Of a stretch of 36,668 nt of DNA, positions 2,199 to 30,738 are shown piece after piece; position 1 is the first letter of the stretch; the number at the start of each line of letters is the position of its first letter. This DNA is from a virus. The notes under the pieces were generated by a model, which searched no databases, was not told the DNA's origin, and saw only the letters and a list, made by a program, of their open reading frames with translations. The translations under genes and the position numbers were made by a program. The stretch lies in the IMG/VR virus record IMGVR_UViG_3300024518_000015, positions 1 to 36,668 of that record. One strand, 5' to 3'.

Positions 2199-2563
2199 CA
2201 GATCACCTCTCGAAGTATTAACTGGAACTGGATTATCTTCCCGCGCCCGCGCTTGACAGTCCTGACCATCGTTATATCAAACAGTTGTGGAACTTGTAGA
2301 TTCTCCGTGTTGAGGACTGAGATCCTGTTTTCCTCTTTCACATCTGCGATATTGTCTTTCCTGATAAACGCAGGAGAGACAAGCAGTTTATGAGTGCTGA
2401 CTACGGTTTCCCTGGCGAACAGCTCCGCCTCCGTCGCTGTGAGATCTATCAAGACGCCGGGGAACTCCACCAGATCCTCCCAGGTGTCTGTCCCGCCGCC
2501 TGTGCCTGTACGCGTCTCCGTGGGCTTCTGGAGCCTACAACGTGTTTGTGGTCCTCTACTCAT
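2198..2563 (-). CDS. Head closure / head-tail joining protein
   Basis: This protein of about 121 aa starts at the ATG whose bases overlap the TGA stop of the connector gene (ATGA). A GTG two codons upstream is the alternative start. The pattern is WEDL then PGVLIDLTATEAELF, followed by EENRISVLN and a closing QLILREV strand. This is typical of head-closure proteins (SPP1 gp16 / HK97 gp7-like). They seal the connector after DNA packaging and bind the tail. The position directly after the adaptor gene supports the call. Confidence 0.72.
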   Translation of the reverse strand: MSRGPQTRCRLQKPTETRTGTGGGTDTWEDLVEFPGVLIDLTATEAELFARETVVSTHKLLVSPAFIRKDNIADVKEENRISVLNTENLQVPQLFDITMVRTVKRGRGKIIQFQLILREVI

Positions 2564-3750
2564 AGCCACGTATCCTTGTATTTGTCCAGCGTGTTCTGGA
2601 TAGCTGAGGGTATTTCGTCTAGATAAGCCAACGAAACGCCGCCGCCTAAGCTCACAGTTCTCATCCCATCGCCAGACTCCTGGATCTTATCATAGGTCAG
2701 CTTCACCAATCTCAGGACTGCACCCTTGAGATCGCCGGGTATAGTAGAGAATCCGCCGGTATAAGTAGCCATGACGTTTCTGTTGCCCTCAGGCCAGCCA
2801 CCGGGCATATATACCATTCCAGTTTCTTCGTTCACGTCTACCTGGATTATGGGATCAGGAGCCAATAGATCCTCGTATGGCGGAGTCCCTGTGTCTTCGA
2901 TGTCTGTAACTACCAGCCCTTTGACTTCCAGGAGTTCCGTGGAGAGCATATCCTCAAAAGCTGGATCGTCGATCAAGGCATCCCATCCTACGCCTAAAGC
3001 GTTGATGGTCGTTATGAGTTCCGCTATAGTGTCAGAGCCAGCAGCAGTCAGGTCGATGGGGCTTGATACCCCTGCATTATCTCCACCGATGACAGACAGC
3101 CTCAGCTCCTGATCCGCAACATCCACGCTTACCAGGGCCCTGGTAGCATCTGAAGACGTGTTCCGGATCTGGATCACCGGTCGTTTTGACCAGGAGACTG
3201 AGGATAGCACCGTTACTGGCCAGTTCCTCAGCCTCAGATACCGTGTCCCATCTCCAGAGTATAACTGATTCACATACGACGCTGAAGCGTAATCGTCGCG
3301 AACCTCGGTCAGAATATCCGCCTCTATATCGTTCCGCACAGTGGCCACCAGGTCAGAGGGATCCGCAGGGACTTCGGTATCGGACGTGATGGTCTGAGCT
3401 GCGGCAGCGTCGGCAGAGAATCCCAGAGTTAAAGCGGCGTCAGAGCCTGTGAATGTGAGAGCTATGGTCTTCCCCACTGTGGCATCGATGGTGAACTTGA
3501 GCGTTGACGAGGAATAGGTCACAGCGAAAGTTATTGTCCCGCCGGTCAGGGTGGCGTTGTTGTTCATGGCGGTCTGGAGAGCTGTGGCCAGTGCAGCGCC
3601 CTCGTATGTTCCATCGGCTATGTCGATAGATTCAGGGCCGCCTTCGTCACTGGTCAAGACCAGAACGTCATTGGCAGCATTGATCTCGAATACGCCTTTG
3701 CTGTCGACGCCTATAAATGCTAAACATTCAGCTAATGTGGTGACTGCCAT
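2560..3750 (-). CDS. Head-tail connector (gp6-like adaptor) with two inserted domains
   Basis: At 396 aa this is far longer than the roughly 100-aa gp6-like adaptors. The adaptor skeleton is visible in pieces: MAVTTLAECLAFIGV at the start, LRLRNWPVTVLSSV near 172-185, then ATYTGGFSTIPGDLKGAVLRLV and a C-terminal helix ending TLDKYKDTWL. Residues about 20-128 are an inserted Ser/Thr/Ala-rich beta domain (TFAVTYSSSTLKFTID, IALTF). Residues about 195-290 are a second insert with ATRALVSVDVADQELRLSV and TIAELITTINALGVGWDALI. The adaptor ring joins portal and head-closure protein. The inserts probably face outward and may bind whiskers or the capsid; this is inference. The ribosome site AAAAGGAATAAC precedes the ATG. 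Confidence 0.7.
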   Translation of the reverse strand: MAVTTLAECLAFIGVDSKGVFEINAANDVLVLTSDEGGPESIDIADGTYEGAALATALQTAMNNNATLTGGTITFAVTYSSSTLKFTIDATVGKTIALTFTGSDAALTLGFSADAAAAQTITSDTEVPADPSDLVATVRNDIEADILTEVRDDYASASYVNQLYSGDGTRYLRLRNWPVTVLSSVSWSKRPVIQIRNTSSDATRALVSVDVADQELRLSVIGGDNAGVSSPIDLTAAGSDTIAELITTINALGVGWDALIDDPAFEDMLSTELLEVKGLVVTDIEDTGTPPYEDLLAPDPIIQVDVNEETGMVYMPGGWPEGNRNVMATYTGGFSTIPGDLKGAVLRLVKLTYDKIQESGDGMRTVSLGGGVSLAYLDEIPSAIQNTLDKYKDTWL

Positions 3751-3751
3751 G

Positions 3752-4039
3752 TTATTCCTTTTCCGGTTCGTCGTTCTGTTCCACAGGCTTTATCTCAGGC
3801 TTCACTTCTTCAGTGATGATCATATATTTGACTCTATTCAATGTCAACTCTAATTTCCTGGCCTGCACTATCTTAACGATAGCTGATTCGCGACCTTTCT
3901 GGAACCATTCAGCTCGCCGTTTGTCTCGTGCCGCATCCCGTCGCTTTGTGTAATGCGAAACGCTGGTGAATCCCACAGTATATAAAAGAAGCAGTAGAAT
4001 CGCAATGATACCAACCCACCGCAATATTTTATTTCTCAT
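3752..4039 (-). CDS. Single-pass membrane protein, possible i-spanin-like
   Basis: This 95-aa protein has one N-terminal membrane segment (about residues 8-25, WVGIIAILLLLLYTVGF). A strongly basic helix with RRDAARDKRRAEWF follows, then an acidic tail ending EQNDEPEKE. The layout (short cytoplasmic start, one membrane span, long helical exterior) fits Rz-type inner spanins, and a holin-like gene lies three genes upstream. However, no lipoprotein partner is visible and the tail is charged rather than proline-rich. Its function is not established. The ribosome site GGGAGATATAACG is identical to that of the tail chaperone gene. Confidence 0.6.
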   Translation of the reverse strand: MRNKILRWVGIIAILLLLLYTVGFTSVSHYTKRRDAARDKRRAEWFQKGRESAIVKIVQARKLELTLNRVKYMIITEEVKPEIKPVEQNDEPEKE

Positions 4040-4066
4040 CGTTATATCTCCCCAGATATTCTTAGT

Positions 4067-4405
4067 TTAAGGCGCAGCCCATCCATCAGGTGTTAAAACT
4101 AGGGAAGTAGCCAAAGCCTGATACCTGGGTATGATGAAATTCGACAAAGTCGTTTGCTGACCAGCAGTTAAGGGAACGGGATCGTTCCTCCCTTTTCTGA
4201 GACCTGCCCCAATCTGTGTAGAGTTCATATACAGCTTGAACTCTCCTGCCTCCACATCATATCGGATCACCATATTCTCAAAGCCGAGGTGAGTATACGT
4301 TTCGGTCAGATCGGCTTTTGCTATGAGTGTTGGTGCTACCATAGAACCAGCAACACAAACAAGAACAAACAGCAATACGGTTCCCCATCCTTTTTTCAAC
4401 ATCAT
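4067..4405 (-). CDS. Small secreted protein with Sec signal peptide
   Basis: This 112-aa protein starts MMLKKGW and then has a hydrophobic stretch up to about residue 28. A likely signal peptidase I site follows at AKA-D (about 30-31). The mature part is about 80 residues (FKLYMNSTQIGAGLRKGRN, then a helix LSNFIIPRYQALATSLV). C17 lies in LVCVAG but lacks a proper lipobox residue before it, so it is not an obvious lipoprotein. I do not recognise the family. It follows the signal-bearing fibre gene by two bases and is probably exported together with it. Confidence 0.65.
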   Translation of the reverse strand: MMLKKGWGTVLLFVLVCVAGSMVAPTLIAKADLTETYTHLGFENMVIRYDVEAGEFKLYMNSTQIGAGLRKGRNDPVPLTAGQQTTLSNFIIPRYQALATSLVLTPDGWAAP

Positions 4406-4407
4406 CT

Positions 4408-6513
4408 TTAATTGCCTCCATTCTGTTGTTCTAACTTCGTAATCTGATCTTGTAGTTCATTGAAACGCTCTTTCCAGTGATCAATCTGTGCCTGTTGCTC
4501 TTGAAGCCCCTGTACCATCAAGGCTACAGTAGCCCTAGTGTATAACCCCCATCTCTCTGTTCCATCTTCGCCAAATGCTAATGGAGCAGCCTCTGGATGC
4601 ACCTTGTGTACATCCTGTGAAATAAAACCAAACTGCCTATTAGTACCTCTCGCAGGATTTTTCCAGGTATAATACTTGCCCGAAGGATACCGAAGCAGAA
4701 GTTCAAGCGCATCATCGATTTCCCCATCAATATTCTTTTCTTCACGAGAAGAGGATGTCGTAATCAGTCCTGTGCCACCAGAAAATGTCACATCACCATC
4801 TCCGTACTGTGGCATAAACACACTGCTAGCTCCGTCAACAATAAGGGCATCCGTGCCATCTTGTTCTTCTACCAATAGCGCAATATCTCCCGCATCATTG
4901 CCAGCGGTAATTTGCGCACCATTTCCTTGGCCACTAGTTACATCATTATTTGTTATTAACCACATGGGCACTGACGAATCAAGCCCATTTGCATTGGTCA
5001 TATTTATCTGACCACCAGAAGGCGTAATGGTTAAATATCCATTAGCATCCGTTTGAAAATCGGTATACACCGTGCCATCCGTGTGAGTCATCCGTACTTG
5101 CGGAGCAGAAGCATGTAATACATCCAGTTCTCTGTCTGGGCCAGATGTACCAAAGCCAAAATTGCCGGCGTGTACTATCCACGAATCTGAATCAGCTTCA
5201 AACGCGTAAGTCTGAACCTCCGTATCGCTATACATGTATATAAAAGGATTAGTAGTATCACCACCCGGAAAGAATTGTATCCTCTCCTCACCAGTGCCAG
5301 TGGACTTAAAATATCCAGTTCCACGCACTTCTAAAATACCATCCGGTGCTGAGGTCATTCCAATTCCAATCTCAGGCACGAAAGTTCCAGCCCCACCTAA
5401 GGCCGGAATGAACTGAACTGCTGCGACTTCGGCAGCATTGTATATCGTGAAAGTCGGATTGGTAGTAGCGCCAGCTACGGCGAATAGAAATCTGTCTTCA
5501 CCAGAAGTATCAAGTATTTGAGCATTGCCTTGTATTGTTGCTGGAATAGACCCATGAGCAGCAACCCCCACACCTAAGCGCGCAAACTGCGGTGTGCCGG
5601 CAATTACAACACTTTGATCCAGGGAAAAACCGTCTGTAGTATCGACGTTCAGGTTCGTCACCACTGTTGTCGATGCAATGGTAAAAGGAGCCGTTCCCGT
5701 GGCTATATCTGATTCAAATGTTTCGGAGCGAATTTCTTGGCCGCCCGCGTCCCAATCCGAGGTCAACGCCACGCTTCCATCTTTGTTAAGATATACCGAA
5801 TGCGTATGACCAGGATCGGCCCCTGACGTAACGTTAGGCCCTAAGATATTCCCAGTCACAGTCACGCCGCCACTGAACGTCATCAGGTCATTGCCAGCGA
5901 TCATAGTGTGATCAGTACCCGACACGTCAAATGTCCAGGTATTTGAGGCGTTTGACCCATCGCTCCAGGTCGTAGCGTCTATTAGTGTAGTATCTAACGA
6001 TACTGTATCACCCGTTAATACTATCGGCGTTGAAACCGCAAGATTCGTATCGGCTGAAATGTCAATAGCGGCGTTATAATAGATCTCTCGCCAGTCAGCA
6101 CCATCGAATCTGAGAGCGATAGAACTGGTGGCTCCGATAGCCCTGGAAGCGATGCTATTAAGCAACAATACATTCGTTCCGGCCAGCGTCCCTTGATCCT
6201 GGAGCGTAACAGTATTCGCTTCCGCAGGATCGGCGGTTATGATGACAATCTGTCCCTCTGTGCCATCCGCTACGTGGGGAGTGGACGTGAGGGTGTAGTT
6301 AGCATCAGGATTCACCTCGACTATGGTGGCATTGGCTAGAATAGCATCGCCAACGGCAGTTATGGCTTGCGCTGCTGAAGGCGTAAATACGGACGTGAGA
6401 GTGACTTTCAGGTCGGTGATAGTAGCAGGAACGTCGTTCACCTGTACCCGAACCGCATAAGCCGATCCAGCAACCAGAAGAACTATGAAGATAAGACTTA
6501 GTAACCTTCTCAT
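4408..6513 (-). CDS. Fibre protein with Sec signal peptide and C-terminal peptidase S74 chaperone
   Basis: This 701-aa protein starts with a textbook signal peptide (MRRLLSLIFIVLLVAGSAYA, cleavage after residue 20). Residues about 49-145 form a beta module (AITAVGDAILAN...ANYTLTSTPHVADGT...FDGADW) shared with the 601-aa tail fibre. The centre is repetitive, glycine/threonine-rich fibre sequence with a tail-fibre-like HTHSVYLNKDG segment. From about 588 to the end is a peptidase S74 intramolecular chaperone (SSREEKNI, FGFISQDVHKVHPEA, ending in a coiled coil). That family trimerises fibres and cuts itself off using a Ser-Lys pair, here plausibly in SSREEKN. The ATG overlaps the TGA of the holin-like gene. 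A Sec signal on a phage fibre is odd. Either it is displayed on the host cell, or the N-terminus is a membrane-like anchor on the virion. Confidence 0.8.
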   Translation of the reverse strand: MRRLLSLIFIVLLVAGSAYAVRVQVNDVPATITDLKVTLTSVFTPSAAQAITAVGDAILANATIVEVNPDANYTLTSTPHVADGTEGQIVIITADPAEANTVTLQDQGTLAGTNVLLLNSIASRAIGATSSIALRFDGADWREIYYNAAIDISADTNLAVSTPIVLTGDTVSLDTTLIDATTWSDGSNASNTWTFDVSGTDHTMIAGNDLMTFSGGVTVTGNILGPNVTSGADPGHTHSVYLNKDGSVALTSDWDAGGQEIRSETFESDIATGTAPFTIASTTVVTNLNVDTTDGFSLDQSVVIAGTPQFARLGVGVAAHGSIPATIQGNAQILDTSGEDRFLFAVAGATTNPTFTIYNAAEVAAVQFIPALGGAGTFVPEIGIGMTSAPDGILEVRGTGYFKSTGTGEERIQFFPGGDTTNPFIYMYSDTEVQTYAFEADSDSWIVHAGNFGFGTSGPDRELDVLHASAPQVRMTHTDGTVYTDFQTDANGYLTITPSGGQINMTNANGLDSSVPMWLITNNDVTSGQGNGAQITAGNDAGDIALLVEEQDGTDALIVDGASSVFMPQYGDGDVTFSGGTGLITTSSSREEKNIDGEIDDALELLLRYPSGKYYTWKNPARGTNRQFGFISQDVHKVHPEAAPLAFGEDGTERWGLYTRATVALMVQGLQEQQAQIDHWKERFNELQDQITKLEQQNGGN

Positions 6514-6905
6514 GAGCTATCACCGCCGTTCCTGTCATGCACAGCCGATTCTATCAGCGTGTTCAGCAACTCGTCAAGATCGGAATTGACTTTCCCCATG
6601 AACTTCATGGCTGCATCTGGCGCTATCGCTTTCAGAACATCAACCGCGCTTTCTTTCAGCTCCGTCTTCTCTTCATCTGTCAACTTACCATCAGCCGCCG
6701 CCAGTTTTAATTTATCGCCGGTTGTCTGCGCGACTGTCTTGACAGCTTTCTCAGCAAGATCCGCCAAAAGGTCGCCATAGCTCTGGAGCTTGTCGTTCTT
6801 TATCCTGGCGAATAGATAACGGATGCCAACGCCTAACAGACCAGCTAGAACGACACTGACTCCAGCCAGAAATTCCTCTAATATGCTCGAAATCATCATG
6901 TCCAT
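6510..6905 (-). CDS. Holin-like membrane protein (LLH-type layout)
   Basis: This 131-aa protein has one N-terminal membrane segment (about residues 6-33, ILEEFLAGVSVVLAGLLGVG). A basic RIKNDK follows, then a long amphipathic helical domain with AEKAVKTVAQ, KLTDEEKTELKESAVDVLKA and a C-terminal helix. The order (membrane helix, then AEKAV helix, then acidic/lysine-rich helix) resembles LLH-family phage holins, which permeabilise the host membrane at lysis. It is coupled to the fibre gene by an ATGA overlap. The ribosome site is AAGGAGAACGAC. Alternatively it is a structural anchor for the exported fibre. Confidence 0.5.
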   Translation of the reverse strand: MDMMISSILEEFLAGVSVVLAGLLGVGIRYLFARIKNDKLQSYGDLLADLAEKAVKTVAQTTGDKLKLAAADGKLTDEEKTELKESAVDVLKAIAPDAAMKFMGKVNSDLDELLNTLIESAVHDRNGGDSS

Positions 6906-6915
6906 GTCGTTCTCC

Positions 6916-7404
6916 TTAGCTGTTCAGGCTCCTGGACTTTTCAACCCAACGCGTGCCATCGTAAAGCAGCACAATGGTGTCCAGTATAGCCGATGGCCCA
7001 AAATCATTAGCGGGGCTTGATTGACCGCCCTGCAAGACTAAGCTGGCACTCGCCTGGAGTGTCGTATCGGTATCACCAAATACAATAGTAATCTCATGTC
7101 CGCCAGATGCAGGATCATCGAAGTCTGTTATGGTAGTCGCGCCGGTGTTCGCCGTCTTGAAATGCGAGCCGCCGGCTATTGATGGTGTCGTGTCCAGATC
7201 CGTGAACGTGGCGAAGGTGACAGCGCCACTACTGGAGCCAGCCGGAGCGAAGAGCGTCCATGCCGTCCCGTTCCAGATGTAAGTTAGTTTCGTGTCAGTC
7301 TCGAAAAACGTGGAGCCGGCTTTCACGCCCGTTGTGGATAACGTCGCGCGCTCGGCTGCCGTTCCGATGTATTTTTGTATGTCCGTCATCAACAGAGCTG
7401 CCAT
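6916..7404 (-). CDS. Virion-associated protein with FETDT..YxWNGTAW motif
   Basis: This 162-aa protein opens with TDIQKYIGTAAERATLSTTG, then GSTFFETDTKLTYIWNGTAWTL at about 31-52. The W-N-G-x-x-W strand motif is common in phage fibre and structural proteins. The second half has SIAGGSHFKTANTGATTITDF and a closing LYDGTRWVEKSRSLN strand, a jelly-roll-like pattern seen in fibre tips. Its first 52 residues are paralogous to the 52-aa gene immediately upstream. Its function in the virion is not known. Confidence 0.6.
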   Translation of the reverse strand: MAALLMTDIQKYIGTAAERATLSTTGVKAGSTFFETDTKLTYIWNGTAWTLFAPAGSSSGAVTFATFTDLDTTPSIAGGSHFKTANTGATTITDFDDPASGGHEITIVFGDTDTTLQASASLVLQGGQSSPANDFGPSAILDTIVLLYDGTRWVEKSRSLNS

Positions 7405-7419
7405 CGCCGGATCCTTTCG

Positions 7420-7578
7420 TTAGGTAGTCGTCCAGGCCGCGCCAGTCCAGACGTAAATCAACTGTGTGTCAGTCTCGAAGAAAGTAGCACCAGCCTTAAC
7501 CGCAGTGGTAGTCAGGCCAGCGCGTTCGGCGGCTGTGCCTATATAGTTCTGTGTATCTGTTATCAATACCGCTGCCAT
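7420..7578 (-). CDS. 52-aa paralogue of the next gene's N-terminal domain
   Basis: A short ORF starts at the ATG at 7578, with AGGGGTGATAGC as ribosome site, and ends at TAA at 7420-7422. Its product (ITDTQNYIGTAAERAGLTTT, then FFETDTQLIYVWTGAAW) matches the first 52 residues of the following 162-aa protein almost position for position. It therefore looks like a tandem duplication of a stand-alone domain, or a remnant of a longer copy. The good ribosome site and clean stop favour a translated gene. Confidence 0.7.
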   Translation of the reverse strand: MAAVLITDTQNYIGTAAERAGLTTTAVKAGATFFETDTQLIYVWTGAAWTTT

Positions 7579-7638
7579 GCTATCACCCCTGAAGGAGCAG
7601 AGCGACCGAAGCCGCCCCGCTCTATGATATTTGCTATA

Positions 7639-9099
7639 CTACGCCGCTGCTATAGTTGCTCCAGCGGTTATCCTGCGGAACACCATAGTCACATCAACAG
7701 TTCCGCCGCCTGTGCCAACGCCATCATCACCGTTGATGTATAGCTTCTTCGTTGTTTCGAGCGTGATGGGCAGATTGTTCACATCCGCCAACGCGTTGTT
7801 GATAGTGGCGTTTGCTCCCAGGTTTGCGGTAGCTTCATCCCATAGTGGGACCGTGCCGCCTGTTAAGCCTTTTGCATTATCGCATACCACCTGGATAGTG
7901 GTCGGATTGACAAGCCCTGTGCCGTCGGTCTGCATTATGATTTCTTCTAACACTAGCGAGCCGCTTGCAGCTCCGGTCAGCGGTTCATCCAGAGGACTGG
8001 CTCCATCGTCGGGTATGTCGCTGGAAGTGATAGTCTTAGTGATTATCAGCGCCGTTCCAGCGGCAACAGCCGCATTCGCTATGTCAGTAGCCAGATCCGT
8101 ATCTGCCGGCGTTCCCAACGTGGCAGGAAGAGTCGTGCCTGTGTCTACCAATATGGCGGCTGTGCTGTCATCAACTCCGCCAGCGATTGCAGCATCAACA
8201 GGGATGCCTTCCTCGTCGTTAGAGCCGTCAACATCACACCAGGTATTACCAAACCGGGAACATGCCGCTCCATCAATAGTTGCAGCCTGGGTATCTGTTT
8301 CACATTCATTCCGGGCGATCCTGCCGGTTACTGCTGTGCCAATGATCTGGATCGCGTGTTGTCCGGTCAAGAGGTTTGACAATTCGTTGCCAACAATCCT
8401 GATATTCGTGCAGGCGTTCCCTGCTGTAGGGATCTGGACGCAAGCCTCGTCGAAGTCGCCATAGATCTTATTGCCTTCTATGGTTATTTCGTCGTGGTCT
8501 TTGGCGATCTCAATAGCCTGGTTGTAATTCCCTGCTGTCGGGGCATAAAAAACATTATTGACTACCGTCAAGCGGTCGGAGTCATTATCCACCGTGTCTG
8601 CCGTGATGAAACCCAACCCCGTGGCGGAGCCTTCCCTGAATTCGTTACCATCAATAATAACGTCATCCGCCGCCACGTCAATGGATTCGGTCTGGCTTGC
8701 AATATTACAGATGAACCGTAACCCCATAAAGCGTCTGTTAGCACCCGTAACAGTCAGCGCCGCTACAGCATTCGTTATGGAAGTGAATGTCGGGCGCAAA
8801 GTGCCCCAGGTCAAGCCCAGTGTTAGTATACCCGCTTTAGCCAGCGCAATGGCCGCTGTCAGCGATTCGGCATGACCAGGGCGTATGATTATAACATCAC
8901 CCTGATTAGCGGTCGCTAAGGCTTCCGCTCCCGCATAGGTAGAGCAGGGAGCTTCGTTTGAGCCGACGTTATTGTCAGCGTTAGCATCGCCGGAGTCAAC
9001 CCATATAAAATCCCCGTTGTAGATCTGTTTGTTGACTATGATTGCCGGGCGGCCTGCGATGTTTCGCCAGAAAAATGGTGTTTCTCGTCTTGATCCCAT
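7639..9099 (-). CDS. Right-handed beta-helix virion protein
   Basis: This 486-aa protein has residues about 75-300 rich in rungs of the type V.I.GN.F (DDVIIDGNEF, RLTVVNNVFY, DEITIEGNKIYG, NIRIVGNEL, GRIARNECE), the signature of a pectate-lyase-like parallel beta-helix. The N-terminal part has WVDSGDANADNN, a frequent opening in phage beta-helix proteins. The C-terminal 150 residues form a separate beta domain (SLVLEEIIMQTDGTGL, TVDVTMVFRRI). No catalytic residues can be assigned. Sitting next to the capsid genes rather than the tail fibres, it may be a head-decorating fibre, or part of the surface cassette that follows. The ribosome site is AGGAGACAAAGACA. Confidence 0.7.
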   Translation of the reverse strand: MGSRRETPFFWRNIAGRPAIIVNKQIYNGDFIWVDSGDANADNNVGSNEAPCSTYAGAEALATANQGDVIIIRPGHAESLTAAIALAKAGILTLGLTWGTLRPTFTSITNAVAALTVTGANRRFMGLRFICNIASQTESIDVAADDVIIDGNEFREGSATGLGFITADTVDNDSDRLTVVNNVFYAPTAGNYNQAIEIAKDHDEITIEGNKIYGDFDEACVQIPTAGNACTNIRIVGNELSNLLTGQHAIQIIGTAVTGRIARNECETDTQAATIDGAACSRFGNTWCDVDGSNDEEGIPVDAAIAGGVDDSTAAILVDTGTTLPATLGTPADTDLATDIANAAVAAGTALIITKTITSSDIPDDGASPLDEPLTGAASGSLVLEEIIMQTDGTGLVNPTTIQVVCDNAKGLTGGTVPLWDEATANLGANATINNALADVNNLPITLETTKKLYINGDDGVGTGGGTVDVTMVFRRITAGATIAAA

Positions 9100-9140
9100 T
9101 GTCTTTGTCTCCTGTTCAGGATTTCAACCTGTGTGAAGGG

Positions 9141-9326
9141 TTATTTTTTTTGTGGAGCGCGCCCTTTTCTGTTCTTGGGGGCGGCTGTTGCTTTCTTGGG
9201 TTTAGCAGGCAGCTTCACTGCCTCGCAATCCTCCTGAGATATACACCTCAGAGCTGCGGCTTTGCTAATATCAACCACCTGACCAGCTTCCCAACCCTTG
9301 AACGGTTTTGTGATTTTTACTTTCAT
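9141..9326 (-). CDS. Small lysine-rich head-region protein
   Basis: This protein of about 61 aa starts at ATG 9326, with AAAGGTGTTTGAC as ribosome site. A GTG three codons earlier would leave no spacing. It has a folded N-terminal half (KITKPFKGWEAGQVVDISKAAALRCISQ), a pattern seen in small phage proteins near capsid genes. A basic Ala/Pro/Lys tail follows. I cannot assign a function; DNA or capsid binding through the tail is possible. Confidence 0.65.
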   Translation of the reverse strand: MKVKITKPFKGWEAGQVVDISKAAALRCISQEDCEAVKLPAKPKKATAAPKNRKGRAPQKK

Positions 9327-9348
9327 GTCAAACACCTTTAGTTGAGCA

Positions 9349-9828
9349 TTATTTCACTTCTGATGCAGACGCCTTCTTGTTGGCCGGTGCTTTGGTTGCC
9401 TTTGCACCTTCTGGCTTTTTCTTTTTCTTGCTAACAGGAATCGCCACTTTGCGGTCTATTAACTTCTCCGCCATCAACCGCGTCATAGGCATGACCGGAG
9501 TTTGCTCTAGATCGACAACAACGTCCATGACGTTCAAGATCTCGCCATCTTTCCTGATGCGATACTGAACCCCGCCGTCTTCTCCATACATTTGCCATAC
9601 ATTTTCCCTGGCGCGGATCCGGGTTTTGCCAGGAAGCGGAACGCCTGCCTCAACAAACTGTGCCACTATAGGCTCTGTTAGACGAGCCTCGTTTAGATGC
9701 TCTTCGCATTCCAGCCCCATAGTAAACAACACATCATTATCAGCGTAAGCAGGCATCTTGCCCATCCAGGGCATAGCCAGCTTTACATTGATATATTCCA
9801 TTCCTTTATGACTCTTTTGGATCCCCAT
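9349..9828 (-). CDS. Unknown head-region protein with Lys/Ala tail
   Basis: The start is placed at ATG 9828 (MGIQKSHKG), because AAGGGAGAATCAA lies just upstream. A longer reading would run back into the preceding gene. The product is about 159 aa. It has strands around VKLAMPWMGKMPAYADNDVLF, a RIRKDGEILNVMDVVVDLE segment, and a C-terminal tail of KKKKK and Ala/Lys like that of the next gene. Two consecutive head genes with similar basic tails suggest a shared binding role, for example to DNA or the capsid interior. The family is not recognised. Confidence 0.6.
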   Translation of the reverse strand: MGIQKSHKGMEYINVKLAMPWMGKMPAYADNDVLFTMGLECEEHLNEARLTEPIVAQFVEAGVPLPGKTRIRARENVWQMYGEDGGVQYRIRKDGEILNVMDVVVDLEQTPVMPMTRLMAEKLIDRKVAIPVSKKKKKPEGAKATKAPANKKASASEVK

Positions 9829-9908
9829 TTGATTCTCCCTTGAATGGACGCGGCGGCAGATGGGAAGAATCGTTTGGCACGATCCCATCCACCGCCTGTC
9901 CGTGTTAT

Positions 9909-10334
9909 TTACGGCAGTTGGTCGCTCTGATAATCCGCTCCACTGGCTCGCAGGGTGGCAGAAATCAGGTCGCTGTTCTGGTTTGTTGTCACGTCCACAC
10001 CAACAAACCATTTATCCTCATCGATGCCAACGAGATCATGGGCATTAAACAGTATCTTGTCGATCTGTTCCAGATCTCCTGCTGCGCCGGTGAGTGTAAC
10101 CGTCTTCCCGGTAACGTCTTCTTTGTTTGCGCCTGCTGCGCTTGTGGCAACGGTCAACTGTGCAATGGCCGTTTTCGTGTCTGTCAAGACAGCCTGGATC
10201 ACCATCTCGCCAAACTCATAGCCGCTGAAATCAACATATGCACTGGCATCAGTGCTAGTCTCAGCCGCCGGGTTTATTACAGCCGGCCCAATAATAGAAA
10301 ACTGGCCTGCTTCTTTTCCTGGATCTCTACTCAT
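9909..10334 (-). CDS. Probable head auxiliary or decoration protein
   Basis: This 141-aa protein is probably all beta. It has a flexible start, then SAYVDFSGYEFGEMVIQAVL, TAIAQLTVATSAAG, VTLTGAAG, and a DKWFVGVDVTTNQ strand. The gene follows the major capsid gene by 56 bases, the place where decoration proteins or capsid-vertex proteins are often found. The ribosome site is CGAGGTGACAAGTT. I do not recognise a named family, so the role is inferred from position. Confidence 0.5.
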   Translation of the reverse strand: MSRDPGKEAGQFSIIGPAVINPAAETSTDASAYVDFSGYEFGEMVIQAVLTDTKTAIAQLTVATSAAGANKEDVTGKTVTLTGAAGDLEQIDKILFNAHDLVGIDEDKWFVGVDVTTNQNSDLISATLRASGADYQSDQLP

Positions 10335-10389: not shown

Positions 10390-11688
10390 TTATCTAGCTG
10401 CCAACGTGATCACAGGAGCCAGCGTGTCGCCGAATCGCGGCTGTAGAGTTGTCCGCCTCTTGATCTTGCCGTCCATGTAGAACACCGACCGGAAAGACGT
10501 TTTCACCTTATCAAACGAGAAATGGATCGACGTGTCCCATGTTCCGTTAGGCATCCCTGCCGGAATGACAACCACATACTCACTGGGATCCAGGAGAGCT
10601 ATATCTCCCAAGTCGCCGATGGCGCTCATGTGTTCGCTTGAGAAGAATGGACGCCCCTGGAACGCTTCCTCTTTACTGATTGCCGTTCCGCCTGCGCCGA
10701 TCACAAAAGCAAGGCTGGCAAGCTGCGGGAAGGCTGTCTGGTTATATGCCCATACCGTCCTGTCGGAATGGATTGCCCTGGCGAACATATTGATCAAGTT
10801 TTCATACTCGATTGTGTCAGCTGCCTGTCCCGCTTCGGCTGCTTGCGCTATTTTAGCGTCAGCATTCAAAAATCCCGTGGGCTGTCCTGAGCCTGTTCCC
10901 TTCAGTAGCAGGAAATCAATTCGCCATGCCAGAGCCTCAGCGTACAGCGAACTCATGAAGGCGCTAACGGTAATTGGCGTGAACCTCATCATGGCGTCAG
11001 AAGCATGGACGAAAGCCGCCTGCATACCCATATTCCATTCCACCATCTCGAACTTCGGGCGGCTCTCTGAAAGAGTGTCGTTCTCTCCCTCGTCGTTGAA
11101 TATCACCCCGCCATATACCGTACCAGACGAGTGATCCGTATCGGCAACGACCGGCATCCTCACCTGTTGATTACCCGCCACTGGCAAGACCTGGACTCTA
11201 CTCATGAGGTTTGACTGCTCAAGAGCTGGCTGCCATATAGACATGCGGAACGCTTCAGGGGATAGGAAGCCGCCAAACTCTGCGTTGTCAACTTCCAGGC
11301 CATCTCCGGCGGCTTTACCTGATGCAACATTCTTCTCGCGCTGCATGTTGATCAAGGCGTTCAGCTTATCAGGCACTTTGCCATACATGCCCAGATTGTA
11401 GATGTCCCTCATATAGTCGCCGCCGCCCATGTTGGGATCGTACCCACACCAGGGGTCGCCTTTCTCATCAACGCCGCCCAGGGGAGCATTATCGCGGGGC
11501 TTCATGAGTTCCTTGATCTGGTCTTCGAGTGCGCCGATCTTGGTGTCAAGTTCCGCTCTGTATTCGGTGTCAGGCTCACCGTATTTGCCGTCGAGATCCG
11601 CCTGGAAGACAGTCTTCATTTTCTCTATCTCTGCCTCTAAAATCTTTCTGATGTTGGCCATTAGTTCTGCGAGTTCTTCTGGAGTCAT
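10390..11688 (-). CDS. Major capsid protein, HK97 fold
   Basis: This 432-aa protein is the shell subunit. Residues 1-95 form a charged, helical delta/scaffold domain (MTPEELAELMANIRKILEAE), normally removed by the prohead protease. The core then has the HK97-family pattern: GGFLSPEAFRMSIWQPALEQ, VQVLPVAGNQQVRMPVV, an E-loop-like stretch, AWRIDFLLLKGTGSGQPTGF, and the C-terminal strands YVVVIPAGMPNG and IKRRTTLQPRFGDTLAPVI. The conserved GTGSGQPTGFL segment is diagnostic. The gene follows the protease gene. The ribosome site is CGAGGTGTATTATC. Confidence 0.93.
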   Translation of the reverse strand: MTPEELAELMANIRKILEAEIEKMKTVFQADLDGKYGEPDTEYRAELDTKIGALEDQIKELMKPRDNAPLGGVDEKGDPWCGYDPNMGGGDYMRDIYNLGMYGKVPDKLNALINMQREKNVASGKAAGDGLEVDNAEFGGFLSPEAFRMSIWQPALEQSNLMSRVQVLPVAGNQQVRMPVVADTDHSSGTVYGGVIFNDEGENDTLSESRPKFEMVEWNMGMQAAFVHASDAMMRFTPITVSAFMSSLYAEALAWRIDFLLLKGTGSGQPTGFLNADAKIAQAAEAGQAADTIEYENLINMFARAIHSDRTVWAYNQTAFPQLASLAFVIGAGGTAISKEEAFQGRPFFSSEHMSAIGDLGDIALLDPSEYVVVIPAGMPNGTWDTSIHFSFDKVKTSFRSVFYMDGKIKRRTTLQPRFGDTLAPVITLAAR

Positions 11689-11808: not shown

Positions 11809-12729
11809 TCAAATTGCGGATGTCTTTTCCCACAATTCCTCAAGCGTCGGTTTCTTTTTCGTGCTATCCCATAATGCCTGTAAATCTATTGGCAAAGGCT
11901 CAGGAGCATTGCCAGCCTTCACCTGTTCCAGTTCTAACTCTAAATCGGTGACACGCTGTATTAGCTCGGCGATCTGTTCTGAATCTTTCGGCTCCGGATC
12001 TGCCTCAAAGCTCACAAGGTCTTTGCCCTCGCTTGGAGTCATTATACCCTTGCTCACGGCTATCTGAATCGCGTCGGGATTACTGCCTATGAACACGTCC
12101 GAGTATTCCCATAGCTCCCACTTAGTAAAGAACCTAAACGGCTCTTTGAACTCGTCTTTTGTGGGCTTGATGCCCTTCTCTTTCAGTAACGCCTTCACCC
12201 TGGGAACCCAGTCTTTGAACACGTCATCATAGCCAGTCTCGCCCTTGCGGACGCTCTCCACTGACCGGAAGCCTACTGACTGACCCAGTGGATTCTCTCC
12301 TTGCCTGTAGAGGAACACCTTGTGGCCCAGTTCGGAAAGCTCACCCAGGTACGCTGTCTTTGCTATGATCTCATTGGGCTTGCCCTTTGGTATGCGTTCC
12401 CGCCATAGGCTTTTAGCATGTGGAATGTCATCTCGCCAGTGATCGTGCTGCCACAAGACGATCCCGGAATACTGCGATTCATCCATGCCCTCTGACAGGA
12501 GAACCTCGTCGTCCCTGTCTTTGCGGATGTCAGAGATCACGCCGACTATGGACTGTTCTCCTTCATCGAACCGGAGCAACCTCGCCGGCACTGGAGCTTT
12601 CGGCTGCCAGAGTTCTTTCCTGATTATCTCCGTCTCTGGCTCCAGCTTGCCTATAGACGCTGCGAACTTCTCCGGGAGCGTGTCGCCGCGGAACGAATCA
12701 ATTATCTGCTGTACGGTGAATACTGACAT
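11809..12729 (-). CDS. Prohead maturation protease (HK97/S78-like)
   Basis: The start is placed at ATG 12729 (MSVFTVQQI), eight bases after AGGAGC. A reading 16 codons longer would overlap the previous gene and lacks a ribosome site. The 306-aa product has SIVGVISDIRKDRDDEVLLS, then VLWQHDHW (H95/H97 candidates for the catalytic His) and LGQSVGFR (S151 candidate nucleophile). These are the hallmarks of HK97-type prohead proteases. The last 60 residues contain a coiled coil and may act as scaffold, since no separate scaffold gene is seen. The 120-bp gap before the capsid gene holds only a weak 5-bp hairpin. Confidence 0.85.
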   Translation of the reverse strand: MSVFTVQQIIDSFRGDTLPEKFAASIGKLEPETEIIRKELWQPKAPVPARLLRFDEGEQSIVGVISDIRKDRDDEVLLSEGMDESQYSGIVLWQHDHWRDDIPHAKSLWRERIPKGKPNEIIAKTAYLGELSELGHKVFLYRQGENPLGQSVGFRSVESVRKGETGYDDVFKDWVPRVKALLKEKGIKPTKDEFKEPFRFFTKWELWEYSDVFIGSNPDAIQIAVSKGIMTPSEGKDLVSFEADPEPKDSEQIAELIQRVTDLELELEQVKAGNAPEPLPIDLQALWDSTKKKPTLEELWEKTSAI

Positions 12730-12740
12730 GATATAAGCTC

Positions 12741-13568
12741 CTATAGTGTCACAACGGGTTTGAGTGTACAACGGCATTGGACGTGCAAAGGCGGCCCAAA
12801 TACATTCTCGTAATCCAGATTAAGTGTCAGCTCATTTCCTGCATCGCTCTCAGCGTGGATCACGTCTCCCTGTTGGAAGTAAGTGAAGCCTACCACGACG
12901 CGGCGGCCTGCCATCGGTTCGCAGAAGGGGCATAGCCTGGAATCCCTGGACACCACCCATTCTTTCTCGGTCACGACCCCACTCTGGAGGTATGCCTGCT
13001 CCGCTCCGAAGTTCGCTGCTCTGATAACCTCGCTTCGTGCTATCTGCTCCGCCTGCCATCGTGTCTTGAAAGTGAATATCTCATTGATGCGCTTCGTCAG
13101 CCCCGGGACGCCTTCGCCTTCCACTAGTGACGCCGTGAACGCTTCTCTGAGCTTCTTCTGTGTGCCAGCGTTAGTGTCAAAGCTGAACCTGAAGCTCCGG
13201 TTCTCGATGAACGCCAGAACTCTGGGATTCTCCACCTCGAAGTCAACGCCGATGAAGATCTTTTCCAGTTCAACCTGTCCGTAATCTCCCACGACTTCGG
13301 GGAGAAATAGCTGTCCGTATTCTTCAAACGTGACCAACCATTTAGGCCAGTCTGCCCATTCGTTGGGGCCCTTAGTCATCGCTGCTTTGCCAGCTTCGAT
13401 ATTCCCGATGATCTCCGCCTGCTGTTGGCGGAAGAACGACCTCACTTGACGCTCCACGGCGTTCCTGCGTGGTCGTGTCCACATCTCGAACTCACGCCAG
13501 AGAGCGGCTTTCTGTAAGTCCAGGAGCCTTGATTGGGTGTGTTCAATTAGTGCAGGGCTTGCCGTCAT
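12741..13568 (-). CDS. Phage Mu F-like minor head protein
   Basis: This protein of about 275 aa joins the portal vertex during head assembly. The C-terminal half carries the Mu F-like signature: QIARSEVIRAANFGAEQAYL, then a zinc-binding-type RDSRLCPFCEPMAG, and the closing GPPLHVQCRCTLKPV. The four cysteines and the His suit metal binding. The start is uncertain. ATG 13568 overlaps the preceding small gene by 26 bases and is preferred, while an ATG at 13595 and a GTG at 13619 are in frame with poorer ribosome sites. Confidence 0.85.
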   Translation of the reverse strand: MTASPALIEHTQSRLLDLQKAALWREFEMWTRPRRNAVERQVRSFFRQQQAEIIGNIEAGKAAMTKGPNEWADWPKWLVTFEEYGQLFLPEVVGDYGQVELEKIFIGVDFEVENPRVLAFIENRSFRFSFDTNAGTQKKLREAFTASLVEGEGVPGLTKRINEIFTFKTRWQAEQIARSEVIRAANFGAEQAYLQSGVVTEKEWVVSRDSRLCPFCEPMAGRRVVVGFTYFQQGDVIHAESDAGNELTLNLDYENVFGPPLHVQCRCTLKPVVTL

Positions 13569-13737
13569 TATCAAACCTATCAATTCGTTTGTCATCAACA
13601 AAGACGTCGAGATAGCCACTATCCCGATTGGTCTTCAATTTTATTCTACTTTTATCTCCGTCAGCCCATAGCTCTGCCGCCGTTTGTACCATACGAAACA
13701 GCGAAGAGAAAAGATCTTCTTTAATTTCCTCTGCCAT
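13543..13737 (-). CDS. Small unknown protein in packaging operon
   Basis: This 64-aa acidic protein has MAEEIKEDLFSSLFRMVQTA as an N-terminal helix, then strands KIKLKTN-like and YLDVFVDDKRIDRF. A strong ribosome site (AAGGGGAGATAGACG) precedes the ATG, which supports real translation. It lies between the portal and the Mu F-like gene. The family is unknown. Confidence 0.65.
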   Translation of the reverse strand: MAEEIKEDLFSSLFRMVQTAAELWADGDKSRIKLKTNRDSGYLDVFVDDKRIDRFDNDGKPCTN

Positions 13738-13740
13738 CGT

Positions 13741-13938
13741 CTATCTCCCCTTAGCTTGCGGCGGCGGCGGTGGTGATACTTTCCAGGGGCGCGCAAGCGG
13801 TATTCTCCCCTGCTTGTGATCTGGATTCGCTAACAAACATTTGAGATGAGTATTGACATTCTCGATAACGTATGCTGGCCTTTCAATTCGTTGTTTCCGC
13901 ATACGCCTTCCGCATATAATACACTGCTTAATGCTCAT
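13741..13938 (-). CDS. Small CxxC protein
   Basis: This is probably 65 aa starting at ATG 13938 (MSIKQCIICGRRM), which overlaps the portal stop. An ATG five codons earlier is also in frame. The CIICG knuckle plus HLKC about 25 residues later could bind one zinc ion. The C-terminal end is proline-rich (SPPPPPQAKGR). It lies between portal and the next small gene, with three bases between its stop and that gene's start. Its role is unknown. Confidence 0.6.
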   Translation of the reverse strand: MSIKQCIICGRRMRKQRIERPAYVIENVNTHLKCLLANPDHKQGRIPLARPWKVSPPPPPQAKGR

Positions 13939-15346
13939 GCCCACAATCCCCATTCCGCATGTCGTCTATCTTGCCATCTATCACACCATCAATAGCAGCC
14001 TTCGCCATGCGCTCCACTTCGCTTGGTTCCGTTGGCTCAATAGGAGCGCGCACAGGAGCCAGCTCATCAGCTTCTTCGCTTGGATGAGGCTCCATGCCAT
14101 CCTCTCGGCGCTCTTCGTTGGGCGTCGTAACGCCGGTCGTCCTGTTGACTCTGCGCTTCATGATCTTCATCCTGGTATCTTCTGGAACCGGGTTAGCAAA
14201 CATATAAAACGCCCCGGTATCTGCCAGTGACGGGAACAACGGGATCATACTCTCGGTCAGTTCCTCAGCTATCATGGTCAGGTTGGGGAGTATGGTATCT
14301 CTGAGGAACTCTGTATTCCCCGCTTCAGCGACAGCCCTATTGCTGGACTCCATAGTCAGCTTGGAAAGCGGCACTTGCAACACGTTAGCGATAAACTCCC
14401 GGAGCATCTTCGCACCTTCCAGATAGCCCATCTCCTGGAGCGTCTGTCCCAGAACTTCGATCTCCCATTCGCCTTGCGTGAATCCGACACGGCCCGCGTT
14501 TGATGCGCTTTGGTACAGGTCGGCAAAAGCCTTCTTGAACTCATTGAACTGCTCCGGCCCCATCTGTCGTAACACTTTCACAATAGCCGCCGGCACTCCC
14601 ATGTTGTGTAACGTGCTGTTCTGGAACGTGGAAGTACTCACCTCGCCGGATATTCTCTGCGATGCCGCTGCAACTGGCGAATGTCCTTGAGACATGGAGA
14701 ATGGATTCGGATACCAGAAATGGATTATCTCTTCGAGAGCGAATTTCTTGTCTGTCTTGGTGAATCCTCGCTTTAGCTTGTAGCCTGTGACCTGGCCGTT
14801 ACTCTCAATAGGCTCCATTCTAGTCGTCGGCATTCGTTGGATCTGCACTGGAATTGCGCCGTTCTCGTTCATGATAGGATGCCAGTATTCATTCCCGTTC
14901 AGCCCCATGTTGATCATGAGGTTGTCAAATAATTGATACCGCGTCATGGAGCCATTGGCTCGTTTGAACACATCCAAAGCAGGGTGATCGGTTATCTCTT
15001 CAACGTTTTCATTGTGCGTCATGGTCTGCTTGCAAAAGTGTATCTCTGAGAGAAATGCTTTCATGTCATCAGTGACAGGGATCCGCTTTGAACTGTTCCG
15101 GGAATCGTTCTCCGCCGGGATGAATAAATGAAACGGAGCTGACGCCACCGCTGGTGCAATCTTTCTGATACATGCGTATGTCGTGCCACGGTATTCCTTG
15201 CGTTGTGCCGTCCAGTTATTCCACGCTATCTCACCGGTGTTCTTCCCAGTCATGCCCATGAACGCGGCGAAGCTAGGGGCCTTGTCGAAGTCCTGGCTGG
15301 CGGCTTTCCCTGCTATCACACTGGCTATCTTTGTCCTGAAACTCAT
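13928..15346 (-). CDS. Portal protein, HK97 type
   Basis: This 472-aa protein forms the dodecameric DNA gate. The pattern fits HK97-family portals: TTYACIRKIAPAVASAPFHL, then HPALDVFKRANGSMTRYQLF, NGNEYWHPIMNENG, EIIHFWYPNPFSMSQGHSPV (diagnostic), and a helical end with RTTGVTTPNEERREDGMEP (the clip/crown region). The ATG overlaps the TerL stop (ATGA), so the two are coupled. The ribosome site is GGGGAGCTT. Confidence 0.93.
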   Translation of the reverse strand: MSFRTKIASVIAGKAASQDFDKAPSFAAFMGMTGKNTGEIAWNNWTAQRKEYRGTTYACIRKIAPAVASAPFHLFIPAENDSRNSSKRIPVTDDMKAFLSEIHFCKQTMTHNENVEEITDHPALDVFKRANGSMTRYQLFDNLMINMGLNGNEYWHPIMNENGAIPVQIQRMPTTRMEPIESNGQVTGYKLKRGFTKTDKKFALEEIIHFWYPNPFSMSQGHSPVAAASQRISGEVSTSTFQNSTLHNMGVPAAIVKVLRQMGPEQFNEFKKAFADLYQSASNAGRVGFTQGEWEIEVLGQTLQEMGYLEGAKMLREFIANVLQVPLSKLTMESSNRAVAEAGNTEFLRDTILPNLTMIAEELTESMIPLFPSLADTGAFYMFANPVPEDTRMKIMKRRVNRTTGVTTPNEERREDGMEPHPSEEADELAPVRAPIEPTEPSEVERMAKAAIDGVIDGKIDDMRNGDCGHEH

Positions 15347-16632
15347 AAGCTCCCCAGTACTTGTGGGATCAGATCCATCTCTTTGAAATATGTATAAAGC
15401 CCATAGCGTTCAGCATCAGGGCCGTCATCTCGAACTTTCACCGGCTGGAAGTCTAACACATTACCATGCCGGTCTTCCTTCAGCTTGTATGATTTCCGCT
15501 GCTTCAGATACTGCTGTCCAGCTTCACTGCCTGTGTGAATAAACGGCGTCTTGGTCTGGACTAGGGAGATCCCGGCCTTCACGTCATTATCGGCTTTGCT
15601 GATATTATACCCGCCATTGTATACGATGTCAATAAGATCCGATCTGGACGGGTCAGCATACATAAAAGCGTTTTTGTCAACTTCCAAGTCATCAAAGCGG
15701 TCAACGATATTGTCACTTCCTACCTTAGACTCAAAGAGCAAGGGGCGTTCATATATCTGGTCTTCTATCCTTCCAATCTCAACTAATACCATAGCATGAA
15801 CGTCTCCGAAGTCCAGCCCATACCACAGGTCGTCAAAGTCTTCTTTAGCTGGCCACTTCTCAGCAGCAAGTTCATGATATTTCGGGAAGATGAGGTTCTT
15901 GATAATACCCCAGATACCAGCGGCATAGATCTTGTATAGGTTCTCATCCTGGTCTTTCAGTGCCTCCAGCTCATCCACGTATTCCGGATCGTTCAGGAAC
16001 TCGTTATCCTTGTATGTAGAGTGCATCACTGTGGCTGTCTCGTCGTTGGCTTTCGGTTCGCCGCCCTCGAAGAACCGGTCATTGAGGAATGAGAACTGGT
16101 CAACGGGATTGAATGACAGTACGATCTGTTTTTTTGTTCGCTTCTTGCCACGGAGCCTGAGATTGAGCTGCGTTATATCCATCTCATCAAACTCTGTGCT
16201 TTCTTCTGCCCAGGCGCTTGTCAGATTCTCGAAGCTCTTTATCTTCTCTGGATCATCCATACCGGCGCAGCGGATCACTGAGCCACCCATCCAGTTTATC
16301 TCCATCGTGGACTCTTTGACGTTCACCAGGGAGCGGAGATTCCATTCGTCAATGTAGTATTTGAATAGCGCAAAGACTGAATATCTGACTGACGGTGAGG
16401 TCTTTCTGACTGCCAGGATGTTGTGCTTGATGCCCCTGGAGATGCCTGCAAGGATGCGGATGATAAACATCTGGGCAATGAAATGGGACTTCCCTGAGCC
16501 TGCGCCGCCTATGAGTACCAGGAAGCGTTTCAAGTCCATCAGGAGCGGGTAGAACTTTGTGTTCATCAGGTTTTTAACCTGACGGAAATCCCACTCGATG
16601 TTTTGTATATTTACGTTAGATGATGTCGTCAA
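15343..16632 (-). CDS. Large terminase subunit
   Basis: This 429-aa packaging ATPase and nuclease of the terminase_3 type has a Walker A motif at about 42-49 (GGAGSGKS). A Walker B/catalytic Glu region lies at about 136-145 (FENLTSAWAEESTEF). Motif III is near VLSFNPVDQFSF. In the nuclease half, D274 (WYGLDFGDVHAM) and D327 (FMYADPSRSDLID) are the expected metal-binding acids. It starts with TTG at 16632, with AAAGGATTTGGACA upstream, and overlaps the small subunit by 17 bases. It is followed by portal with an ATGA overlap. Confidence 0.93.
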   Translation of the reverse strand: MTTSSNVNIQNIEWDFRQVKNLMNTKFYPLLMDLKRFLVLIGGAGSGKSHFIAQMFIIRILAGISRGIKHNILAVRKTSPSVRYSVFALFKYYIDEWNLRSLVNVKESTMEINWMGGSVIRCAGMDDPEKIKSFENLTSAWAEESTEFDEMDITQLNLRLRGKKRTKKQIVLSFNPVDQFSFLNDRFFEGGEPKANDETATVMHSTYKDNEFLNDPEYVDELEALKDQDENLYKIYAAGIWGIIKNLIFPKYHELAAEKWPAKEDFDDLWYGLDFGDVHAMVLVEIGRIEDQIYERPLLFESKVGSDNIVDRFDDLEVDKNAFMYADPSRSDLIDIVYNGGYNISKADNDVKAGISLVQTKTPFIHTGSEAGQQYLKQRKSYKLKEDRHGNVLDFQPVKVRDDGPDAERYGLYTYFKEMDLIPQVLGSL

Positions 16633-28932: not shown

Positions 28933-30738
28933 TTAATTTGACATATTGATGAGCATTGTGCTTGAGCCCCACTCCCAGGTCTCAGCGCCGATGCCTGTCA
29001 CTCTCACCAGCAAATTGTTCCCGCTCACGGTGAATGTGGCATCAAGGGCGGCGTTCGATTCGTTTGCGTGGAGTTGTGTTACCCCGCCCTGGAGTGTTGC
29101 TCCCCCTGCCGCCGTTCTGTACGCTGTGCAGGCTATATGATACGATGCCCTGTCAGTTCCATCAGACTGGACGCCCACAACGAAAGCCTCGACGTGATAC
29201 GTGTTCTCGTCCAGGAGAGCGATAGTGTCCAGTGTTGTCTGTACGGCGTCGCCGGTCTGCACTTCCGCTGTATCAGATATAACATAGCCATCGTGTTTGG
29301 TTCCTGAGCCGATAGTAACGCCGCCGGTCAAAGTAGTCATGCCGCCAGTAGGCCCCATTTCGATCCAGTCCACGCCGTCGAACTGAAGCAGGAGCATGGC
29401 TTTCCCAGAGATATCCCTGGTGGGAGCCAATAGCTGCAAGTTAGTACCAGCCAGGAGCTCCTGGTCCTGGACAGTGACCGTATTAGTTTCAGCGTTTGGC
29501 GCTGTCAAAACTACACGCTGGCCTGGTGTCCCATCTGCTATCGTGGGAGTCGAGGTCATGGTGTAGTCCGCGTCGGGATTCAACATGACTGTCTCAGCAT
29601 CAGCGAGTATGGTATCACCCGCGGCAGTGATAGCCTGTTCCCCAAACGCCATAGATCCATTCCCAGAGAAAACTGTGTGAGTAGGCGGGATCATATTGAA
29701 AAATGTTGCAGTGATCCCTATATTGATACTCAGAGTTGCAGCAGGGTCGAACCACAGGGGAGCATCGGCGTTGAACGTGATACTGGTTCCCAGATTGTAA
29801 GTACCCGCAGGAAAGAATATGAACCCGCCGGAAGCTGTGGCGGCTGAATGAGCTGCCGAGAGAGCTGCGAATTCGTCGTGCATTACCAGGACGCTGGAGA
29901 CTGTGACCGTGGCATTTGCAGCTAACGTTATAGCCGTCCCTGTTATGGCTGTTATGGTAGTACTGAGATTGTAGTTGACGGTGATATTCGCGCCAACATT
30001 GGCCCCCAGAGTTGACCAGGTGGGAGCGCCGTTAGAGTCAAACTTGGCGCATTCATCCAACCCGGCGGCTCCGTTGGCATCTGTCTCCCAGATAACCTCA
30101 GTAACGCCATCAGTGTAGGTGTACCCTATCGTTTTGATGACATACCAGTAATCCACGCCGGTTACTAATACAGGGAAGTCAGCAGACCAGGTGAACGTTT
30201 CCTCAGCTCCGCTGGCGTTCAGTGCAGTATTGGTGATAGCGTCGCTTGCGCCGCCTATGATCGCCGTTCCGAATGGAGTGTCAGGGAGCGACGTGCCGCC
30301 GCCGTCATCTGCAAAGATTGACAAAGTACACGTTCCCGCAGGAGCGCCGGTCTTTTTCAACCTCACGTTGGAAACAGTTCCCACAGCGCCGGAGTTTGTG
30401 GCAGTAAACTTCCTGGCGTACCATTCACCATCCACAGCCGCACCTGTGGTTGTGAAGTCGTTGTCTGTGTCCTCTGTGTTACCTGTATCGGTAACGTCCA
30501 GCTTTGCGCCCAGAACGACGATCCCCTGTCCTTCGGCAAAGGTAGACCCAGAGGCGACTGTCAAGTCATCCGTGGCGGCTGTGATGCTACCTGTGGTAGT
30601 TGTCCCGCCATCAGGAGAGGCATCAAACGACTTCACGTCGAACACAGGTCCCAGGCGTTTCTTGAACTCAATGACCATCGCATTCCATTCGGCCGATGGG
30701 ATTATATCTGACGAGGTTTTTGTGTCATCAAACGCCAT
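28933..30738 (-). CDS. Pectate-lyase-like tail fibre with inserted domains
   Basis: This 601-aa protein has the pectate-lyase-3-like start (FDVKSFDASPDGG) at about 33-45, with its continuation only at about 285-320 (DEFAALSAAHSAA, then GGFIFFPAGTYNLG). Between them, residues about 82-258 hold an inserted choice-of-anchor R-like domain (ARKFTATNSGAVGTVSNVRL, CTLSIFADDGGGTSLPDTPF, VLVTGVDYWYVI). Residues about 368-461 are the module shared with the signal-bearing fibre (AITAAGDTILADA...DYTMTSTPTIADGT...FDGVDW). The C-terminal 130 residues form a beta domain with a clear closing strand. It probably recognises or trims surface polysaccharide. The ribosome site is AAGGAGCGATC. Confidence 0.75.
   Translation of the reverse strand: MAFDDTKTSSDIIPSAEWNAMVIEFKKRLGPVFDVKSFDASPDGGTTTTGSITAATDDLTVASGSTFAEGQGIVVLGAKLDVTDTGNTEDTDNDFTTTGAAVDGEWYARKFTATNSGAVGTVSNVRLKKTGAPAGTCTLSIFADDGGGTSLPDTPFGTAIIGGASDAITNTALNASGAEETFTWSADFPVLVTGVDYWYVIKTIGYTYTDGVTEVIWETDANGAAGLDECAKFDSNGAPTWSTLGANVGANITVNYNLSTTITAITGTAITLAANATVTVSSVLVMHDEFAALSAAHSAATASGGFIFFPAGTYNLGTSITFNADAPLWFDPAATLSINIGITATFFNMIPPTHTVFSGNGSMAFGEQAITAAGDTILADAETVMLNPDADYTMTSTPTIADGTPGQRVVLTAPNAETNTVTVQDQELLAGTNLQLLAPTRDISGKAMLLLQFDGVDWIEMGPTGGMTTLTGGVTIGSGTKHDGYVISDTAEVQTGDAVQTTLDTIALLDENTYHVEAFVVGVQSDGTDRASYHIACTAYRTAAGGATLQGGVTQLHANESNAALDATFTVSGNNLLVRVTGIGAETWEWGSSTMLINMSN

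Follow-up and report, generated by a model that had tools for sequence, protein, structure and literature searches.

Phage fibres are taught as virion parts that are assembled in the cytoplasm, and the tail fibres and spikes that bear an S74 domain, such as the K1F endosialidase and the L-shaped fibre of T5, are built into virions there and have no signal peptides. The Bdellovibrio MAT proteins are experimentally known to combine a signal peptide with a working, self-cleaving S74 domain, and MAT fibres such as Bd3182 have a beta-rich domain of about 130 residues directly after the signal (PMC10769870). Lambda Lom is encoded in the structural region and its product is exported to the host envelope (PMC12309495), and phages of Porphyromonas gingivalis encode proteins with host-type Sec signals that follow the Q rule (PMC10367356). 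No paper on exported phage fibres was found in the literature searched, an absence which is not in itself proof.

The window analysed here is the whole of a 36,668-base IMG/VR record, which has almost every gene on its minus strand and encodes an S74 fibre protein with a predicted Sec signal peptide (Table 1). As in the MAT fibres, a signal peptide is combined with a long fibre and a C-terminal S74 chaperone, and the trimeric state, self-cleavage and extracytoplasmic action of the MAT fibres would also apply to the window fibre. The MAT fibres, however, are cellular and measure about 1000 residues, whereas the window fibre is phage-encoded, apparently coupled to a holin gene, and has a phage fibre module after its signal; we liken it to the MAT proteins by its signal and S74 architecture and do not class it as one of them. 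It shares with the K1F endosialidase and the T5 L-shaped fibre an S74 domain with a Ser/Lys pair and a fibre body, but differs in its signal and in the position of its gene between the head and connector genes. Like Lom, it is encoded in the structural region and predicted to be exported to the host envelope, although Lom is a small outer-membrane barrel and the window product an S74 fibre. The Sec signal of a phage-encoded protein is shared with the P. gingivalis phage proteins, which are products of Bacteroidota phage genes of unknown function and obey the Q rule, whereas the predicted site in the window lies between Ala and Val and not before Gln.

Table 1. Positions of the cassette, the parts of its fibre and the surrounding genes in the window
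Feature	Position	Strand	Basis or remark
LLH-type holin (predicted), 131 aa	6510..6905	minus	N-terminal TM at about residues 7-26, long charged C-terminal part
S74 fibre with predicted signal peptide, 701 aa	4408..6513	minus	Pfam Peptidase_S74; 4-nt overlap with holin gene
Sec signal peptide (predicted), fibre residues 1-20 (MRRLLSLIFIVLLVAGSAYA)	6454..6513	minus	Rule-based screen; character kept in L171
Fibre module, residues 49-144	6082..6369	minus	Common to the window's own tail-position fibre
S74 intramolecular chaperone/protease domain with Ser588...Lys593 (SSREEK)	4588..4755	minus	Pfam over cut-off, alignment, fold match
Small secreted protein (predicted), 112 aa	4067..4405	minus	Signal peptide, no family
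95-aa protein, one N-terminal TM, charged tail	3752..4039	minus	TM hydropathy 2.39 at residue 8
Variable slot	3752-9908	minus	Between head genes (conserved down to 9909-10334) and connector genes; L002 syntenic on both sides, other content within
Terminase genes	16616-17125 and 15343-16632	minus	
Portal gene	13928-15346	minus	
MuF-like gene	12741-13619	minus	
Protease gene	11809-12777	minus	
Major capsid protein gene	10390-11688	minus	
Head-tail connector genes	2560-3750 and on	minus	
Tail genes	down to 124, resuming at 36642 and descending	minus	
Conventional tail-position fibre without signal	28933..30738	minus	Same 96-aa module; internal control

The first-pass annotation described four consecutive genes for exported and membrane proteins, coupled or closely spaced, and all four open reading frames are indeed present on the minus strand where it placed them. 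The stop codon of the holin gene (TGA) and the fibre ATG overlap by 4 nt (ATGA, 6510-6513), followed by gaps of 2 nt between the fibre and 112-aa genes and 27 nt between the 112-aa and 95-aa genes, and plausible ribosome-binding sites lie 5' of all four. This arrangement strongly indicates that the fibre is translationally coupled to the holin gene. Apart from the tape measure, five genes in the window encode a TM segment or signal, four of them being the cassette; the probability of at least four such genes falling consecutively by chance among about 42 genes is about 0.002. The fifth, at 26880-27083, encodes a 67-aa protein that weakly matches a PHROG of hemolysins (XhlA-type).

The first of the four products combines a single N-terminal TM segment with matches to PHROG holin clusters (phrog_13712, E=1.2e-10) and on these grounds resembles the LLH holins (Holin superfamily 6), but its score against Pfam Holin_LLH (PF09682) is below threshold (16.6 bits against a cut-off of 24.9), and formal family membership is not claimed. 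Neither the 112-aa nor the 95-aa protein matched a family in the PHROG and Pfam searches, and the former found no relative in the viral contigs; its single-sequence AF2 model had a pLDDT of only 55, too poor for a fold search. The layout of the 95-aa protein is suggestive of a spanin, and by their position both small proteins could be partners of the fibre. No endolysin was recognized by Pfam or PHROGs among the window genes scanned. By eye, an M15-like candidate was seen at 42093-42467 of the record of the nearest relative, L002, with no counterpart in the window.

The signal peptide, MRRLLSLIFIVLLVAGSAYA followed by VR, has a positive n-region, an h-region of mean hydropathy 3.35, an Ala-X-Ala site and no lipobox. 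Signals were called with a home-made rule-based screen, which is permissive, chooses freely among in-frame starts, and gives a positive call for 13% of shuffled versions of this N-terminus, itself very hydrophobic, so that the score alone is weak. One could thus argue that the start is wrongly called or the hydrophobic stretch fortuitous, and that the fibre is an ordinary cytoplasmic one, which we find scarcely credible given a comparison with a second contig, L171. Over residues 23-150 the two fibres are 88% identical (dN 0.10, dS 1.77), while identity is as low as about 37% over residues 1-22; yet MRRLLSLIFIVLLVAGSAYA in the window and MKKLLIVLIISLVAVYSTTA in L171 have equal charge, Ala at -1 and similarly hydrophobic h-cores (3.35 in the window, 3.53 in L171), and the n/h/c layout, short core and small residues are common to both. 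The start, the ribosome-binding site (GGCGGTGRTAGCTCATG) and the 4-nt overlap are likewise conserved at near-saturated synonymous divergence. A signal that has diverged in sequence and kept its character is the pattern of a working Sec signal, and argues against both a start-codon error and a fixed virion anchor. An uncleaved N-terminal segment that tethers the fibre to the inner membrane or to the particle would agree with the very strong hydrophobic core, but is distinctly improbable, since the short core, the small residues and the Ala at -1 are kept in both contigs while the rest diverges. With KK in L171 and no Tat motif, the Sec route is indicated rather than the Tat route.

Translation from the annotated ATG with a Sec-type signal is thus strongly indicated, and export of the fibre well supported, by sequence comparison. 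The signal peptide proposed by the first-pass annotation was positive in the screen and draws its decisive support from the conservation in L171; the virion-linked hydrophobic anchor offered there as the alternative is weakened, as it is the signal-like character and not the sequence of residues 1-22 that is conserved. None of the roles suggested there, a superinfection block, clumping of cells or action at lysis, is singled out by the sequence.

At its C-terminus, the fibre scores 29.5 bits against Pfam Peptidase_S74 (cut-off 22), and in the alignment the catalytic SDxxxK reads SSREEK, with Ser588 and Lys593 kept and the usual Asp replaced by Ser. An AF2 model of the last 142 residues (pLDDT 81) matched PDB entries 7dc3 (E=8.5e-5) and 3gw6 (E=0.019) in a fold search, the matches being the MyRF intramolecular chaperone (ICA) and, in 3gw6, a phage entry named 'intramolecular chaperone'. 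The product is an S74 fibre protein, for which trimerization and self-cleavage are predicted.

To what extent is a signal unusual on such a protein? We scanned 80 viral S74 loci, sampled by motif similarity to the window and not at random, of which 57 had an intact 5' end, and convincing signals were found in three of these (L015, L021 and L043). At the same threshold (score >=9), and with starts chosen as freely as in the viral set, 41 of 54 S74 proteins from bacterial genomes carried signals (Fisher P=4e-15 against the viral set), and some of the remaining bacterial proteins resemble prophage fibres. A signal combined with an S74 domain is thus the norm in cells (chiefly Bacteroidota, besides Patescibacteria and Verrucomicrobiota) but a rarity among viruses. 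The earlier remark that a signal is unusual for a phage fibre accordingly holds for the S74 family, but not in its sweeping form, as signal-bearing fibres recur in L015, L021, L043, L171/L172 and L175. Weak screen matches with scores below 8 (L020, L025, L052, L053 and L062) were judged false on inspection, and StenR_269 (L009) was rejected as a similar layout, its S74 fibre having no signal and its neighbours being unrelated. Patescibacteria (candidate phyla radiation) contigs L106, L118, L137, L138 and L164 encode signal-bearing S74 fibres of up to about 2700 residues (L138).

This common bacterial architecture, together with a best tblastn match of the S74 domain to a Chitinophagaceae protein (44-46%), would be consistent with a surface adhesin like the secreted S74 fibres of cells, altering how infected (or lysogenic) cells attach or clump. 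We regard this as improbable: the presence of a phage tail-fibre module in the N-terminal half means that the gene is not simply bacterial, a scan of the window genes recognized no integrase among those covered, and the S74 tree gives no placement, with the window fibre in no well-supported clade and on an end branch of 1.3, too weak to position it. A TerL search of genome contigs found no host.

Over 96 aa, the tail-fibre module is 58% identical (E=5e-27) to its counterpart in the tail-position fibre of the window itself. The signal-bearing gene lies between head and connector genes, at the end of a variable slot; this position does not fit a tail fibre, and we do not class the product as one of the virion. 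Since a signal-free second fibre occupies the usual tail position, the exported fibre need not be the receptor binder of the virion. In the main rival explanation, which we consider rather unlikely, the fibre, once exported and cleaved, would attach to virions extracytoplasmically, upon lysis or later. It would agree with the shared module and with the same slot between head and connector genes in L002 and L174, which holds structural-type fibres without signals, so that a virion role would be natural; this counts against our own proposal. Its best argument comes from L021 and L043, where consecutive fibre and spike genes bear signals, hard to explain if none of the products is in the virion. 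Against it stand the signal-free fibre already in place, the tight coupling to the holin gene, and the lack of a precedent in the literature searched.

Fibres with signals recur in several settings. In L015, a small signal protein comes next after a signal-bearing fibre, and genes identified by eye as lysozyme-, peptidase- and holin-like lie beyond it, in an arrangement that recalls the window. L021 (2629-11705) and L043 (1657-8753), Bacteroidota-like phage contigs, have runs of fibre, spike and SGNH-hydrolase-like genes with signals, several obeying the Q rule, and in the S74 fibres of both the cut is predicted before Gln; these runs are perhaps whole exported adhesion modules. The podophage-like L175 encodes consecutive signal-bearing fibre-like proteins at 7125-8303 (with the same 96-aa module) and 8293-9879, and an RlpA-like secreted protein (by eye) upstream at 4777-5211.

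Relatives of the cassette were sought with several queries. The whole fibre found none in the viral contigs or INPHARED, nor did the S74 domain or the holin in the viral contigs, and the cassette surfaced elsewhere solely through the 96-aa shared module, which recovered L171 and L172, near-identical and counted as one lineage. Both contigs end inside the fibre, and the comparison thus covers its upstream part. In L171, the order small fibre, holin, fibre and the 4-nt overlap recur, and the holin (7468-7860), 77% identical to that of the window, adjoins the same fibre N-terminus. From residue 151 on, identity falls to 31%, a divergence as expected for a ligand- or receptor-binding part. The capsid proteins of the window and L171 are only 37% identical, whereas L002, which stands closest to the window in capsid (77%) and terminase (78%) and shares its gene order to either side of the slot, has no S74 domain anywhere in its 43.2-kb record and no counterpart of the fibre N-terminus. 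Because of this discordance between capsid and cassette, the holin-fibre pair appears to have moved independently of the capsid by horizontal exchange between phages, and its passage as a unit is supported. The slot is hypervariable (3752-9908 in the window, 9610-17420 in L002), and the beta-helix, LamG-like and fibre proteins that fill it vary from one close relative to another.

As a potential explanation, to which we give a probability of about 0.4, the late holin and coupled fibre pair would produce a Sec-exported, trimeric fibre that is held at the host envelope and might mask receptors. Sec would very likely export the fibre, and its signal (about residues 1-20) would be removed. Once the fibre is exported, trimerization would be driven by the S74 domain, which would then release itself at Ser588, as suggested by the conserved Ser/Lys pair and by the secreted Bdellovibrio S74 fibres, which do so. 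One could further speculate that the mature fibre remains periplasmic or at the surface of the infected cell, where its variable middle might bind a surface ligand, and that adsorption by other phages, or by progeny that encounter the cell or its debris, might be prevented because the receptors are covered. More generally, and tentatively, we propose a mobile module of holin plus exported fibre, with which different phages would send S74-matured trimeric fibres through Sec, late, onto or outside the envelope, whether for receptor masking or for an unrecognized extracytoplasmic loading of virions. If true, fibres would serve some phages as tools, either free or anchored to the host, or virions would be finished outside the cytoplasm, and a phage gene annotated as 'S74 tail fibre' need not encode a tail fibre.

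Since the tail genes reach one end of the record and resume from the other (Table 1), the gene order implies that it is circularly permuted. Among the tail genes, a repeated domain (IAFVDGG..DTITDTGSGFVTAGF..GDLITVSGSTSNDGTYTV) is found in the major tail protein (124-1038) and, in several copies, in a 759-aa tail protein (31191-33470). In the tail-fibre region, a 313-aa protein (27160-28101) without a useful family match has several kelch-like repeats (FKWDG..W..VA.QL...I..L..F...IYGGT).
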